From NCBI RefSeq assembly GCF_000374865.1, contig NZ_KB895454.1, positions 1-64,000 of the forward strand: a stretch of 64,000 nucleotides of DNA. The letters are read 5' to 3'. Position numbers and translations under genes: made by a program. Under the pieces are notes generated by a model. That model saw only the letters and a list, made by a program, of their open reading frames with translations. It had not been told where the DNA came from and did not search any database. Shown one piece after another: positions 50,793 through 60,160 of this stretch. Within the stretch, counting starts at the first letter, position 1. The number at the start of each line of letters is the position of its first letter. This DNA comes from Arthrobacter sp. 135MFCol5.1 (GTDB taxonomy: Bacteria > Actinomycetota > Actinomycetes > Actinomycetales > Micrococcaceae).

Positions 50793-51057
50793 CGGAATCC
50801 TGCTCTCGTTGTGGGGTGGGTTCCACCCGTGGGTGCGCCGCCTGGCGTCGGCCACGGAGCCGTCATGGGCTGTGTGGTTGGACCATATGGAAGTATCGGC
50901 GCGCCCGGATGCGGTGGTCAAGGGTGTGGCCAAAACCGGTCGGATTCGAACGTTCAGGCAGCCCCGACTTATCCGGACACAATGCTTGAAGCTTGAACTA
51001 ATGCGGGATACCCTTACTTTAATCTTCAACCATTTATGATGATCGCCGAGGCCCGCA

Positions 51058-52914
51058 ATGACAGCAATTGCCCATTCCGCACCGCATTCGTCCGCCCTGC
51101 CCGCGGCCACCGTCCGCAGCCAGGTCAGCGTCCCGCTCCGGTTCGTCGACGGCTACGCCACCACCGCCGTCGTCATGACGTTCCATGGCTTGGTGGACGG
51201 CCGCGAACACCTGCTGCTGGCCCTGGGTAACTGGGAGCAGGCCCTCCTCGGCGGCGCAACGGCGCCCCTGGTCCGGCTGCACAGCGAATGCATGACAGGG
51301 GACGTCTTTGGCAGCGAGCGCTGCGACTGCGGACCGCAGCTCCGGGAAGCCGTGGAACGCATTGCTGCCGCCGGAGGCTTCCTGCTCTACCTCCGCCAGG
51401 AAGGCCGCGGCATTGGCCTTTACCCCAAACTCGACGCGTACGCCCTGCAGGACCAGGGCCTTGACACCTATGACGCCAACCTTGCCCTCGGCCATAGCGA
51501 GGATGAACGCGACTATACGGCGGCAGCCCAGATGCTCCATGCCCTGGGCGCCACGTCGGTGAGGCTGTTGAGCAACAATCCCGACAAAGCTTCGCAGCTG
51601 GCCGCACTCGGCATCGCCACCGCCGAAAAGATCCCCACCGGTGTCCACCTCTCCGAGGCCAACTCCCGCTACCTCGCCGCCAAGCGGGACCGGACCGGAC
51701 ATACGCTGGAGCTCGGCCAGGCCGCCGTCGTCCGCGCCGCCCCGGAAGGCTCGGGCCGCGCCCCCGGTCACGCGGACATGCTGGGCCGCGTGGAAGCCCT
51801 GATCCCCGCCCTGCGCGCCAGGGCGGAGGAGGCCGAGCAGCTGCGCCGGCTCCCGGAGGGGACGATGCGGGACCTGGGGGCCGCCGGCATCTTCCGTCTC
51901 CTGGCGCCCGCGGGTGTCGGCGGGTATGGCCTGGGCGCACAGACGTACGGGGAAGCCATCAGGGGCCTCGCACGGGGTTGCGCCTCCACGGCCTGGACCG
52001 CCGGGCACCTGGCGGAGCACGCCTGGATGCTGGCACGCTGGCCCCGGAAGGTGCAGGACGACGTTTTTTCCGGCGGCGTGATGCCGCTCGCCGCCGCAAC
52101 CAGTGCCCCGGTTGGTTCGGCGCGGAAGGTGCCGGGCGGATATGCGGTTTCGGGCCACTGGAGCTTCGCCTCGGGCATCATGCACTCGCAATGGGCCCTG
52201 TTGGCGGTGCAGCACGACGGCATCCGGTTGCAGGCGCTGGTTCCGCTCACCGACCTGGAACTGGTGGACGCGTGGCATACGGACGGGCTCAGGGGAACCG
52301 GCAGCAACGACCTCCGCGCGGACTCGCTCTTCGTTCCGGCGGACCGGGTCATGGACTGGGCCGTGCTCAGCGGCCCCGACAATCCCGGCGCAGAGCTCCA
52401 CTCCGAACCACTGATCTCTGCGCCGATGTCCACCTTGCTCAACCTGGTGGCCCCGGCGGCGGCACTTGGCTCCGCAGAGTATGCCCTGGAGCTGTTCCGG
52501 GACCAGCTGCTGCGCCGGAACGAAAAGAACGGCACCATCACCCGGCAGGCAGACTATGTCCCGGCGCAAACCCGCTACGCCAAGGCGTCCGGGCTGGTGG
52601 CCACCGCCCAACTGCACTGGCAGGCGGCACTGTCCCTGCTGCCGGGGGACGGGCCGGCGGCCAGTGGGCCTGCCGCGCGGGAGCGGGCCTCGTTCCGGCT
52701 GTCGCTGGCCCTAAGCGCGGAAGCCGCCCAGAAGGCGGTCCGGCTAGCCGTCGCCGGATCGGGCGCCAGTGCCCACCGCCTGTCCCATCCGCTGCAGCGG
52801 ATCCAGCGCGACGTCGGCGTGCTCCTGAGCCACCCCACCCTGGGCCTCGACCCCATCCTGGAGCAGGCGGGCCGCGGCCTGCTGGGCATGGAATTCACCA
52901 TGCCGTCCTTCTAG
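51058..52914 (+). CDS. Fusion of GTP cyclohydrolase II and flavin-dependent monooxygenase/acyl-CoA dehydrogenase-fold domain
   Basis: A 618-residue fusion. Residues ~20-220 are a complete GTP cyclohydrolase II (RibA): zinc Cys78, 89 and 91 in HSECMTGDVFGSERCDCG, then LRQEGRGIGLYPKLDAYALQ, the catalytic DERDY (149-153) and LLSNNPDKA. Residues ~240-618 form an acyl-CoA-dehydrogenase-like domain of the two-component monooxygenase type (group D): LAPAGVGGYGLGAQTYGEAI, VSGHWSFASGIMHSQWALL and GLRGTGSNDLRADSLFVPAD. RibA would normally feed riboflavin synthesis; the second half would use reduced flavin and O2. A flavin reductase lies downstream at 54124. No stop or shift separates the parts. Confidence 0.92.
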   Translation: MTAIAHSAPHSSALPAATVRSQVSVPLRFVDGYATTAVVMTFHGLVDGREHLLLALGNWEQALLGGATAPLVRLHSECMTGDVFGSERCDCGPQLREAVERIAAAGGFLLYLRQEGRGIGLYPKLDAYALQDQGLDTYDANLALGHSEDERDYTAAAQMLHALGATSVRLLSNNPDKASQLAALGIATAEKIPTGVHLSEANSRYLAAKRDRTGHTLELGQAAVVRAAPEGSGRAPGHADMLGRVEALIPALRARAEEAEQLRRLPEGTMRDLGAAGIFRLLAPAGVGGYGLGAQTYGEAIRGLARGCASTAWTAGHLAEHAWMLARWPRKVQDDVFSGGVMPLAAATSAPVGSARKVPGGYAVSGHWSFASGIMHSQWALLAVQHDGIRLQALVPLTDLELVDAWHTDGLRGTGSNDLRADSLFVPADRVMDWAVLSGPDNPGAELHSEPLISAPMSTLLNLVAPAAALGSAEYALELFRDQLLRRNEKNGTITRQADYVPAQTRYAKASGLVATAQLHWQAALSLLPGDGPAASGPAARERASFRLSLALSAEAAQKAVRLAVAGSGASAHRLSHPLQRIQRDVGVLLSHPTLGLDPILEQAGRGLLGMEFTMPSF

Positions 52915-52974
52915 GCAGCGCGGCGTCGGTTGCCCGGTGCAGCCGCAGGCGGGAAATCCGTGTCAGGATCAGGT

Positions 52975-53913
52975 ATGCCCCAGCGCCTGATGCTGCTTGA
53001 CACTGCTTCCCTGTACTTTCGTGCCTTCTACGGCCTTCCGGACAGCATCCGGCGGCCGGACGGTACGCCGGTAAACGCTGTCCGCGGCCTGCTGGACATG
53101 ATCGCGCGGCTCACCACCGACTACCAAGCCACCCATCTGGTGGCGTGCTGGGACAACGACTGGCGGCCCCAGTGGCGGGTTAGCCTGATCCCCACGTACA
53201 AGGCACACCGGGTGGCGAAGGCGGTACCGGGCGGGACCGACATCGAGGTGGTCCCCGAGGGCCTTGAGGCCCAATTGCCCATGATCCGCCGGACCCTTGA
53301 GCTCGCCGGCATTGCCATCGTGGGGGCCGCAGACCATGAGGCCGACGACGTCGTGGGCACCTATGCCAGCCACGCCGCCTTCCCGGTGGACGTAGTCACA
53401 GGAGATCGGGACTTGTTCCAGGTTTGCGACGACGAACGCGGCGTCCGGGTGATCTACACCGCGCGCGGCATGAAGAACCTCGAGGTGGTCACGGAGGAAA
53501 CCGTGGTGGCCAAATACAAGGTCCTGCCGCAGCAGTATGCCGATTACGCCACCCTGCGCGGGGACGCCTCAGACGGACTGCCGGGCGTTGCCGGGATCGG
53601 TGAGAAGACGGCGTCGTCACTGCTCCTGAAGTACGGCACCCTGGAACGATTGCTGGCAGCAGCCGATGAGCCCGGCGGCGGGGTATCCGGCCCGGTCCGG
53701 GCCAGGCTGGACGCCGCCGCCGAATACCTGGAAGCCGCCCCCGCCGTCGTGCGCCTGGTCCGCAACCTGGAGCTGCCCACCCTGGACGAGGCGGGGGCCC
53801 GGCTCCGGCCCGTGACCGGCAGTCGGCGCGCCGGGCTTGAGCAGGCGGCCGGGGACTGGAACCTCGGAGGCTCGGTCCGCCGGCTGCTCGCCGCACTGGA
53901 CCAGCAAGCCTGA
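52975..53913 (+). CDS. 5'-3' exonuclease (FEN/PolI-type)
   Basis: A 312-residue stand-alone nuclease homologous to the N-terminal domain of DNA polymerase I. MLLDTASLYFRAFYGLP, VACWDNDWRPQWRVSLIPTY, ADHEADDVVGTYA and VVTGDRDLFQVCDD carry the acidic metal ligands; GDASDGLPGVAGIGEKTASS is the helix-hairpin-helix. It removes RNA primers or flaps. ATG 52975 is preceded by AGGATCAGGT; it starts 60 bp after the fusion gene on the same strand. Confidence 0.92.
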   Translation: MPQRLMLLDTASLYFRAFYGLPDSIRRPDGTPVNAVRGLLDMIARLTTDYQATHLVACWDNDWRPQWRVSLIPTYKAHRVAKAVPGGTDIEVVPEGLEAQLPMIRRTLELAGIAIVGAADHEADDVVGTYASHAAFPVDVVTGDRDLFQVCDDERGVRVIYTARGMKNLEVVTEETVVAKYKVLPQQYADYATLRGDASDGLPGVAGIGEKTASSLLLKYGTLERLLAAADEPGGGVSGPVRARLDAAAEYLEAAPAVVRLVRNLELPTLDEAGARLRPVTGSRRAGLEQAAGDWNLGGSVRRLLAALDQQA

Positions 53914-54123: not shown

Positions 54124-54639
54124 ATGACCGCCACATCAGATCTCGCTCCACGCCGGCTTCGGGATATCTTTGGAACTTTTGCCAGCGGATTGACGGTAAT
54201 CACAAGCTCCACGCCACAAGGGCCGGCAGGCTTTACGTGCCAGTCGTTCGCGTCCCTGTCCCTGGACCCGGCGCTCGTCACGTTCAGCCCGGCGCGTACG
54301 TCCACCACCTGGCCTGTGCTCCGCAGTGCGGGCACCTTCGCCATCAACATCCTCCCGGCTGAACACCAGCACCTCGCAGGTCAGTTCGCCCGCTCCGGGG
54401 CGGACAAGTTCGCCGGAGTCAGCCACACGTCGTCGCCCTTGGGCAATCCCGTCCTGGATGACGCCCTGGCTTGGCTCGACTGCGAACTGCACGCGGAATA
54501 CGACGGCGGTGACCACACCATCGTGGTGGCCGCGGTACGGCACCTGGATGCCCGGGTGGACGCTGAGCCGCTGTTGTTTTTCAAGGGACGCTATGCAGGG
54601 ATCTCGCCGGTCGAACGCCTGCTCGAAGCTGCAGGCTGA
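54124..54639 (+). CDS. Flavin reductase family protein (FMN-binding split barrel)
   Basis: A 171-residue protein of the HpaC/ActVB-type reductase family. DIFGTFASGLTVITSSTPQG, GFTCQSFASLSLDPALVTF, STTWPVLRSAGTFAINIL and the C-terminal LLFFKGRYAGISPVER are the flavin-binding signatures. It transfers hydride from NAD(P)H to FMN or FAD and releases reduced flavin for a monooxygenase. The nearest candidate partner is the RibA-monooxygenase fusion 1.2 kb upstream on the same strand. GAGAGG precedes the ATG. Confidence 0.92.
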   Translation: MTATSDLAPRRLRDIFGTFASGLTVITSSTPQGPAGFTCQSFASLSLDPALVTFSPARTSTTWPVLRSAGTFAINILPAEHQHLAGQFARSGADKFAGVSHTSSPLGNPVLDDALAWLDCELHAEYDGGDHTIVVAAVRHLDARVDAEPLLFFKGRYAGISPVERLLEAAG

Positions 54640-59054: not shown

Positions 59055-59122
59055 GGATCCATCATGCCCGAGGGCGGCCGCATATGCCGGTGTCTGCCGG
59101 CGGCCGGGTGTACGTTGTCCCC

Positions 59123-60160
59123 ATGGCGAGCGAACAGACCACCATCACCGTCCAAGGTCCCAACGGCGAGCGCGAAATGCGCATCTCCAGCCCCAGCCGC
59201 GTCCTCTGGCCGGACTTGGGCCTGACCAAGTTGGACCTCGCCAGGTATATCTGCGACGTGGGGGAGGCCTTCATTGCCGCCAACGGGGACCGGCCCGTGT
59301 CCCTCCAGCGGTACTCGGACAACATCGAAGGCGAGATGTTCTTCTCAAAGAACCCGCCAAAGGGCACGCCGGACTTCGTCAGGTCCGTCAAGGTGGTGTA
59401 CCCCAGCGCCAGGTCCCATCCCCAACTGGTCCTTGACGAACCGGCAGCTGCCGTCTGGGCCGTCCAGATGAACACCGTGGTCTTCCACCCCTGGCCGTCC
59501 CGGGCGGAAAACACCGACAATCCGGACCAACTCCGCATCGACCTCGACCCGCAGCCCGGGACAGATTTCGGCGACGCCGTCCCCGCTGCCCTGGTGCTCA
59601 AGGACGTCCTTGCGGAGGCAGGGCTCACCGGCTTCGTCAAGACCTCCGGAAACCGCGGCCTGCACGTCTACGCTCCCATCGAGCCAAACCGCGAGTTCCT
59701 TGATGTCCGGCACGCCGTCATCGCCGCCGCCCGGGAGGTGGAGCGCCGGATCCCGGACAAGGTGACCACGGCCTGGTGGAAGGAAGAACGCGGCCGCCGG
59801 GTGTTCCTCGACTACAACCAGGCCAACCGGGACCGTACCATCGCCGGCGCCTACAGCCCGCGGGCCCTCCCGCACGCCCCCGTGTCCTGCCCCCTCACCT
59901 GGGCGGAACTGGAAAAAGCGGATCCAAAGAACTTCACCATCCTGACGGTGCCGGAACGCTTGAAGACGGTGGGAGATCCCTGGGCTGACTTCAGCGCCAA
60001 GCCCGGCACCATCGACACGCTCCTGGAATGGTGGGACCGGGACTGCAAGGACGGACTCGGGGAGATGCCCTTCCCGCCGGACTACCCCAAGATGCCGGGC
60101 GAACCGCCCAGGGTGCAGCCCAGCCGGGCAAGAAAGCCGGCCGACGCCAACAACGACTGA
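59123..60160 (+). CDS. ligD: Stand-alone LigD polymerase domain (NHEJ primase-polymerase)
   Basis: A 345-residue archaeo-eukaryotic-primase-type polymerase. LQRYSDNIEGEMFFSKNPPK, VWAVQMNTVVFHPWPSR, the catalytic RIDLDPQPG (Asp140 and Asp142), VKTSGNRGLHVYAPIEPN and GRRVFLDYNQANRDRTIAGA are all intact. It fills gaps with ribo- or deoxynucleotides during non-homologous end joining. Ligase and nuclease domains are absent, as in other actinobacteria with split LigD. ATG 59123 is preceded by TACGTT at 11 bp and no ribosome site, so it looks leaderless. Confidence 0.93.
   Translation: MASEQTTITVQGPNGEREMRISSPSRVLWPDLGLTKLDLARYICDVGEAFIAANGDRPVSLQRYSDNIEGEMFFSKNPPKGTPDFVRSVKVVYPSARSHPQLVLDEPAAAVWAVQMNTVVFHPWPSRAENTDNPDQLRIDLDPQPGTDFGDAVPAALVLKDVLAEAGLTGFVKTSGNRGLHVYAPIEPNREFLDVRHAVIAAAREVERRIPDKVTTAWWKEERGRRVFLDYNQANRDRTIAGAYSPRALPHAPVSCPLTWAELEKADPKNFTILTVPERLKTVGDPWADFSAKPGTIDTLLEWWDRDCKDGLGEMPFPPDYPKMPGEPPRVQPSRARKPADANND

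Follow-up and report, generated by a model that had tools for sequence, protein, structure and literature searches.

GTP cyclohydrolase II (RibA; PF00925, E. coli structure 2bz0) has a zinc-binding cysteine triad, the motif RQEGRGIG, a catalytic arginine and a tyrosine, all of which recur in the protein described here. However, in contrast to 2bz0 and the rib-operon type, the RibA of this protein belongs to the actinobacterial RibA2 clade and is joined to an oxygenase, and its gene is preceded by paired MarR-type operators instead of the FMN riboswitch of rib-operon ribA. RibA is likewise a fused domain in RibBA (e.g. 4i14), but here it is N-terminal and its partner is an oxygenase rather than DHBP synthase. 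The oxygenase half has its fold, a flavin-site serine and a histidine in common with HsaA, C2-HpaH and XiaF (2rfq, 2jbr, 5lvu), at ~25-30% identity. It differs from these enzymes in a conserved motif of its own, GHLxEHxWMLARWP, and in the attached RibA domain, and from HsaA and HpaH in scoring under both equivalog cut-offs and in having a serine at the C2-HpaH Arg263 position. Extra RibA copies in actinobacteria presumably include the Streptomyces GTP cyclohydrolase II paralogues such as SCO6655, some of which we take to be clustered with PTPS-like genes.

As to regulation, the regulons of the MarR-type regulators MhqR, YodB and QsrR comprise ring-cleavage dioxygenases and nitro- or quinone reductases under a promoter palindrome, and that of QsrR includes an FMN-linked monooxygenase (PMC6798810). 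The regulon of the fusion resembles these Bacillus and Staphylococcus regulons in its palindromic promoter operators and in its ring-cleavage dioxygenase and reductase genes, but has paired operators 32-36 bp apart, actinobacterial MarR proteins and a riboflavin-pathway enzyme. The likeness to the MhqR regulon would be one of gene content and operator shape, as the MhqR operator, TATCTCGAA-TCGAAATA (PMC6798810), differs in sequence from that of the fusion.

For the 64 kb window, by which we mean the whole stretch of DNA analysed, the initial annotation had proposed one uninterrupted 618-codon frame joining RibA to a group D monooxygenase/acyl-CoA dehydrogenase-fold domain. This was borne out by the reading of the open frame, the profile matches and the orthologues:

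51058..52914, + strand: RibA-monooxygenase fusion gene, 618 aa, a single open frame with 57 in-frame orthologues in the genus
51721..51792, + strand: inter-domain linker, residues 222-245, poorly conserved, with residues 220-233 predicted to be disordered

The frame starts with ATG, has no internal stop and is intact across residues 220-240, where a stop would have divided the two domains. It is not limited to one assembly either: the same domain order occurs in frame in 57 of 206 species genomes filed at NCBI under Arthrobacter or Pseudarthrobacter, roughly one in four of the species sampled from the Arthrobacter group. The AlphaFold2 model, whose mean pLDDT of 74 is modest, the alignment being shallow, has two separate folds connected by the disordered linker. 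Ka/Ks is ~0.11-0.16 for the RibA half, the better conserved of the two, and ~0.15-0.22 for the oxygenase half; purifying selection acts on both. The fusion is real, and its origin as a frameshift or assembly artefact is ruled out by the 57 in-frame orthologues and the Ka/Ks values. A literature search whose reach mostly excluded subscription papers gave no earlier description of a RibA-oxygenase fusion, in agreement with the initial annotation, which knew of none, nor of RibA in connection with MarR or quinone stress.

The features of the N-terminal half are as follows:

51058..51720, + strand: GTP cyclohydrolase II (RibA2-type) domain, residues 1-221 (PF00925/NF001591; aligned to E. coli 2bz0 and RibBA 4i14)
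51289..51291, + strand: Cys78, zinc ligand, invariant in 30 sequences and aligned with 2bz0
51322-51324, + strand: Cys89, zinc ligand, invariant across 30 relatives
51328-51330, + strand: Cys91, zinc ligand, invariant across 30 relatives
51388..51390, + strand: Tyr111, equivalent of the GTP cyclohydrolase II tyrosine (E. coli Tyr105), in the motif LLYxRQEGR
51508..51510, + strand: Arg151 of D-E-R-D-Y, the catalytic arginine, invariant

Residues 22-219 match GTP cyclohydrolase II (PF00925, 181.3 bits, cut-off 23.3); this half scores 251.8 bits against NF001591, over the cut-off of 148, and 188 against the equivalog domain TIGR00505, under the cut-off of 205.85. Cys78, Cys89, Cys91, Tyr111 and Arg151 are all invariant among the 30 relatives compared, so the earlier description of RibA as catalytically complete stands, and judging from these residues the half would act as a GTP cyclohydrolase II. 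It falls in the RibA2 family, well apart from the canonical rib-operon RibA. The LLYxRQEGR motif with its tyrosine is present in all the extracted fused or RibA2 copies. The FAPy-forming paralogue of GTP cyclohydrolase II, we assume, lacks a tyrosine at the Tyr105-equivalent position, the Streptomyces enzyme presumably having a methionine where the fusion keeps it; a FAPy-type RibA was ruled out, as all copies retain the tyrosine. No DHBP synthase domain was found in a Pfam scan of the fusion.

The C-terminal half contains:

51793..52911, + strand: group D two-component flavin monooxygenase domain, residues 246-618 (HsaA 2rfq, E=3e-47; C2-HpaH 2jbr; XiaF 5lvu; Foldseek)
52831..52833, + strand: His592, aligned with HsaA His368 / C2-HpaH His396, at least 90% conserved

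Residues ~243-612 match Acyl-CoA_dh_2/_N. The half scores 208 bits against the HsaA equivalog (cut-off 450) and 161 bits against p-hydroxyphenylacetate hydroxylase C2, HpaH (cut-off 650); its nearest solved relatives are HsaA, C2-HpaH, XiaF, 2or0 and Rv3094c, and the Foldseek matches of the model were 5lvu, 2rfq, 7f72 and 3afe, with XiaF and HsaA first. The serine of WSFASG aligns with the flavin-side serine of group D monooxygenases. A histidine with a catalytic role is a familiar feature of group D homologues, and for the type represented by HsaA His368 and C2-HpaH His396 this role is described in PMC5481743. Fold and residues together indicate that the C-terminal domain is an HsaA/HpaH/XiaF-type group D monooxygenase. 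4-Hydroxyphenylacetate is unlikely as its substrate because the position of C2-HpaH Arg263 holds a serine. The suggestion that the oxygenase might be of the riboflavin-lyase kind had to be abandoned: that enzyme (RcaE type) is, as we understand it, luciferase-like, while the oxygenase belongs to the acyl-CoA-dehydrogenase-fold family and no luciferase-like domain was matched by Pfam in the fusion.

Most of the functional evidence for the fusion comes from an operator pair and its regulon, which were absent from the initial annotation. When upstream regions were compared, two palindromes of the form TTACTTGAA-NN-TTCAAGTAA were seen to flank or overlap the -35/-10 pair of the fusion:

50982..51001, strand not assigned: operator A, ATGCTTGAAGCTTGAACTAA, overlapping the -35 and the best PWM match in 64 kb (29.5 bits)
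50986-50991, + strand: -35 TTGAAG, read from upstream sequences
51009..51014, + strand: proposed -10 TACCCT, 17 bp after the -35, as judged from upstream sequences
51014..51033, strand not assigned: operator B, TTACTTTAATCTTCAACCAT, at and after the end of the -10 and the second-best match in 64 kb (28.6 bits)

The third-best site in the window reaches 3.9 bits, so that operators A and B are its only strong matches. The pair is conserved at 62 of 72 loci, 32-33 bp apart. In 1.35 Mb of flanking DNA there were 168 operator sites against one in the reversed control, nearly all of them before RibA-monooxygenase, LigB or MarR genes; as the matrix was built from fusion promoters and is bound to match them, independent evidence comes from the LigB, MarR and genome-wide sites. 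The paired palindromes have the appearance of repressor-type operators, to which a MarR protein may bind.

Whole-genome scans gave two to seven operator sites in ten fusion-bearing genomes, against zero to one in the control, and one to four in eight fusion-negative genomes, against zero to three. Since these are few sites over the control, single sites with three mismatches are not to be trusted. One site nevertheless recurs: each of the 18 genus genomes scanned has TTACTTGAAGCTTCAATTTA or, in a single case, a variant differing by one base, whether or not the fusion is present. In both genomes that were read, the site stands before a gene for a two-domain VOC ring-cleavage-type dioxygenase, and to judge from its identity it would do so in the other 16; this dioxygenase is probably a core member of the regulon. 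At G000:C1:17945-17964 (L227 5946-5965), TTACTTGAAGCTTCAATTTA lies just upstream of the VOC dioxygenase gene, which is divergent from a ThiC-like gene. Sites also stand before DoxX in four of the 18 genomes scanned, and others before LigB, an NmrA-type reductase, a luciferase-like monooxygenase, and an isochorismatase with a hydrolase weakly like MhqD. At seven loci a LigB/4,5-DOPA-dioxygenase-like gene with its own operator copy closely follows the oxygenase; in one of them, L188, RibA is absent and the operator and LigB are still present.

Within the 64 kb window, the fusion has no MarR gene next to it. The candidate repressor by homology is the genus-wide MarR paralogue, which in this genome lies at C24:28988 with only a weak operator site of its own; in a fusion-negative genome, the core MarR gene has a paired site before it. 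The MarR proteins, adjacent and core alike, match MprA/HpaR weakly and do not match the MhqR models. The lack of an adjoining MarR gene in the window and the weak site at C24:28988 speak against a firm choice of cognate repressor.

The same kind of operator, in many cases as paired sites, precedes stand-alone RibA2 genes in Nocardioides, Geodermatophilus, Actinoplanes and other Micrococcaceae, and is absent before the PTPS-cluster RibA2 genes and canonical ribA. Among 70 stand-alone loci from other actinobacteria, picked by similarity to the query and thus not random, the neighbours included MarR genes at 25, RibD-type deaminases at 10 (one of which passes the RibD equivalog cut-off), LigB-type dioxygenases at 7 and nitroreductases at 3, genes of which the outer flanks were almost devoid. 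Many of the stand-alone loci have no adjoining flavoenzyme. Another 21 stand-alone RibA2 genes have a RibD_C-type reductase nearby, and most of them are clustered with a PTPS-like gene. An Actinoplanes/Micromonospora subclade (four loci and their relatives) sits in such a conserved cluster, without the operator, together with the PTPS-like gene, a methyltransferase, the RibD_C reductase and a membrane protein; this type of cluster may represent a separate GTP-derived pathway.

The canonical riboflavin genes of this genome form a complete ribD-E-B-A-H operon (genes assigned by eye) preceded by an FMN riboswitch, the one such element that a search of the genome gave. None was found in the window, which rules out an FMN riboswitch before the fusion. 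A third ribA of canonical type, at G000:C8:80679-81167 (L138 4608-5303), has no FMN riboswitch and adjoins what by eye are acyl-CoA-dehydrogenase-like, MaoC-like and old-yellow-enzyme-like genes. A possible source of reduced flavin lies 1.2 kb downstream of the fusion:

54124..54639, + strand: HsaB/RutF-like flavin reductase (PF01613; NF045630, 184 bits, cut-off 230)

Among the genus loci, a flavin reductase lies close to the oxygenase gene in more than one gene order, with several arrangements seen, and orthologues of this one occur in 46 of 74 oxygenase-bearing and 37 of 132 other genomes, as raw counts that ignore kinship. An obligate partnership is ruled out by its absence from the remaining 28 oxygenase-bearing genomes; in this strain it is a candidate supplier of reduced flavin. 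Directly downstream of the fusion, 52930-53913 encodes a stand-alone 5'-3' exonuclease of the DNA polymerase I N-terminal type, which adjoins the fusion only in part of the genus and was set aside as local context, and 59084-60160 resembles by eye a stand-alone LigD-type polymerase/primase domain protein.

The oxygenase was found in 74 of the 206 genus genomes, and evenly drawn samples of the order (396 genomes) and the class (395 genomes) gave no copy outside the genus. All but two of the 57 in-frame joins span the whole oxygenase, L199 and L201 covering only its first part. At nine of the 74 loci RibA and the oxygenase lie side by side as separate genes, RibA ending in a stop codon and the oxygenase starting from its own ATG after it; at one of these, L200, the oxygenase frame is also disrupted farther along. 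Six loci carry a frameshift, a truncation or an interrupting N run; the decayed or interrupted ones amount to seven with L162, which is joined in frame with a poorly matching RibA half. A RibA gene, domain or remnant stands directly before 73 of the 74 oxygenase genes, unfused ones included, L188 being the sole locus without it. In a rooted oxygenase tree, made by a quick method with a distant outgroup, the split lineage is nested within the fusions; therefore the two-gene state is taken as fission, and the fusion, on these sequences, is ancestral. Adjacency is retained after fission. This lineage (L038-L040, L135, L171, L175, L176, L179, L182, L200) has, in one orientation, an MFS transporter, a creatinase/M24-like hydrolase, an IclR regulator, RibA, the oxygenase and a HAD phosphatase, and it keeps the paired operators before RibA despite the adjoining IclR gene. 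A stand-alone RibA2 that groups with it lies at 7956-8672 of L104, on pCZY (NZ_CP068014), a Paenarthrobacter nicotine-environment plasmid; that record has no oxygenase match.

With a little more confidence than doubt, we propose that the fusion belongs to a MarR-controlled response to aromatics or quinones, in which RibA raises the flavin supply for the fused oxygenase outside riboswitch control. A MarR-type repressor would leave the paired operators, presumably on meeting an aromatic or quinone inducer, and the fusion would be switched on. Its oxygenase domain would take free reduced flavin from a separate reductase, in this strain probably the HsaB-like protein, and hydroxylate a phenol- or quinone-like aromatic, while its N-terminal domain, as an extra riboswitch-independent GTP cyclohydrolase II, would open the riboflavin pathway, so that flavin synthesis would rise together with the enzyme that consumes it. 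Indeed, RibA over-expression raises the output of a flavin-dependent hydroxylase in engineered cells (PMC10958861). The regulon would include ring-opening dioxygenases (VOC/CatE-like and LigB/DODA-like) and DoxX, and would work like the quinone-detoxification regulons of Firmicutes; it is because its content matches those of MhqR, YodB and QsrR that the fusion is read in this way.

It had been suggested that RibA might provide a local supply of flavin. Supply to a flavin-consuming oxygenase is what fits best, given that the GTP cyclohydrolase II residues are kept, that canonical ribA and its FMN riboswitch are separate, that RibA precedes nearly every oxygenase and that stand-alone relatives lie beside RibD-type deaminases. 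The word local, in the sense of channelling, does not hold: several enzymatic steps lie between the RibA product and FMN, so that no channelling from one active site to the other is expected, and natural fission has occurred. Co-expression is favored instead because the two genes, where unfused, remain neighbours behind the same operators, and fusion would guarantee that both halves are expressed equally. However, flavin supply accounts for no more than part of the regulon, as LigB and VOC dioxygenases use no flavin; nor does it require a fusion, and so it does not account for the joining.

The main rival reading, though a rather unlikely one, is that RibA provides the substrate and not the cofactor, its GTP-derived 2,5-diamino-pyrimidine being oxidised by the fused oxygenase (elsewhere by LigB) to a new metabolite, with RibD-like reductase/deaminase and HAD phosphatase genes as pathway steps. 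The oxygenase is indeed almost never without RibA2, more than 10 loci have a RibD_C-type reductase close to the fusion, in seven genomes the split pair is followed by a HAD phosphatase (Cof type, weakly matching YcsE), and one RibA2 subclade is clustered with a PTPS-like gene and RibD_C. However, RibA2 genes that share the operator and have a MarR gene commonly occur without the oxygenase. The operator is missing at the PTPS-cluster genes, and it links the oxygenase with ring-opening dioxygenases and DoxX. Moreover, the characterised relatives of the oxygenase act on phenols or indoles. That a whole new GTP-to-oxidised-pyrimidine pathway exists, in which the oxygenase or LigB would convert the diaminopyrimidine in place into a redox-active or quinone-scavenging metabolite under MarR control, seems to us distinctly improbable.

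The gene order of the split lineage, MFS-M24-IclR-RibA-MO-HAD, could instead point to a catabolic module, in which the oxygenase would serve growth on one aromatic, accompanied by the transporter, the hydrolase and the IclR regulator, with RibA as a co-induced helper and the likeness to quinone regulons superficial. Adjoining regulators do vary by lineage (MarR, GntR, IclR), and several homologues of the oxygenase are catabolic enzymes. We consider this doubtful, as the split lineage retains the operator pair though IclR adjoins and no complete ring-degradation pathway is conserved at the fusion loci. The RibA half might even be a degenerate or regulatory appendage, sensing flavin or GTP without cyclohydrolase flux; in Arabidopsis, bifunctional activity is reported to have been lost from two of the three RIBA isoforms (PMC3509567). 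Here, the catalytic residues are all invariant and conservation is higher in the RibA half than in the oxygenase half, which makes such a role very improbable.

A flavin-supplying response to aromatics, if confirmed, would explain the extra ribA copies in some actinobacteria and would provide a predicted aromatic/quinone regulon with an exact operator. Its regulatory logic is testable: a shared operator would couple the synthesis of the cofactor to a detoxification that consumes it, beyond the control of the FMN riboswitch. It would also offer a natural design for flavin-hungry biocatalysts, whose output is known to be limited by flavin supply. A domain architecture for which we found no description is kept in many species, and our data suggest that the soil bacteria with the fusion make extra flavin on meeting toxic aromatics.
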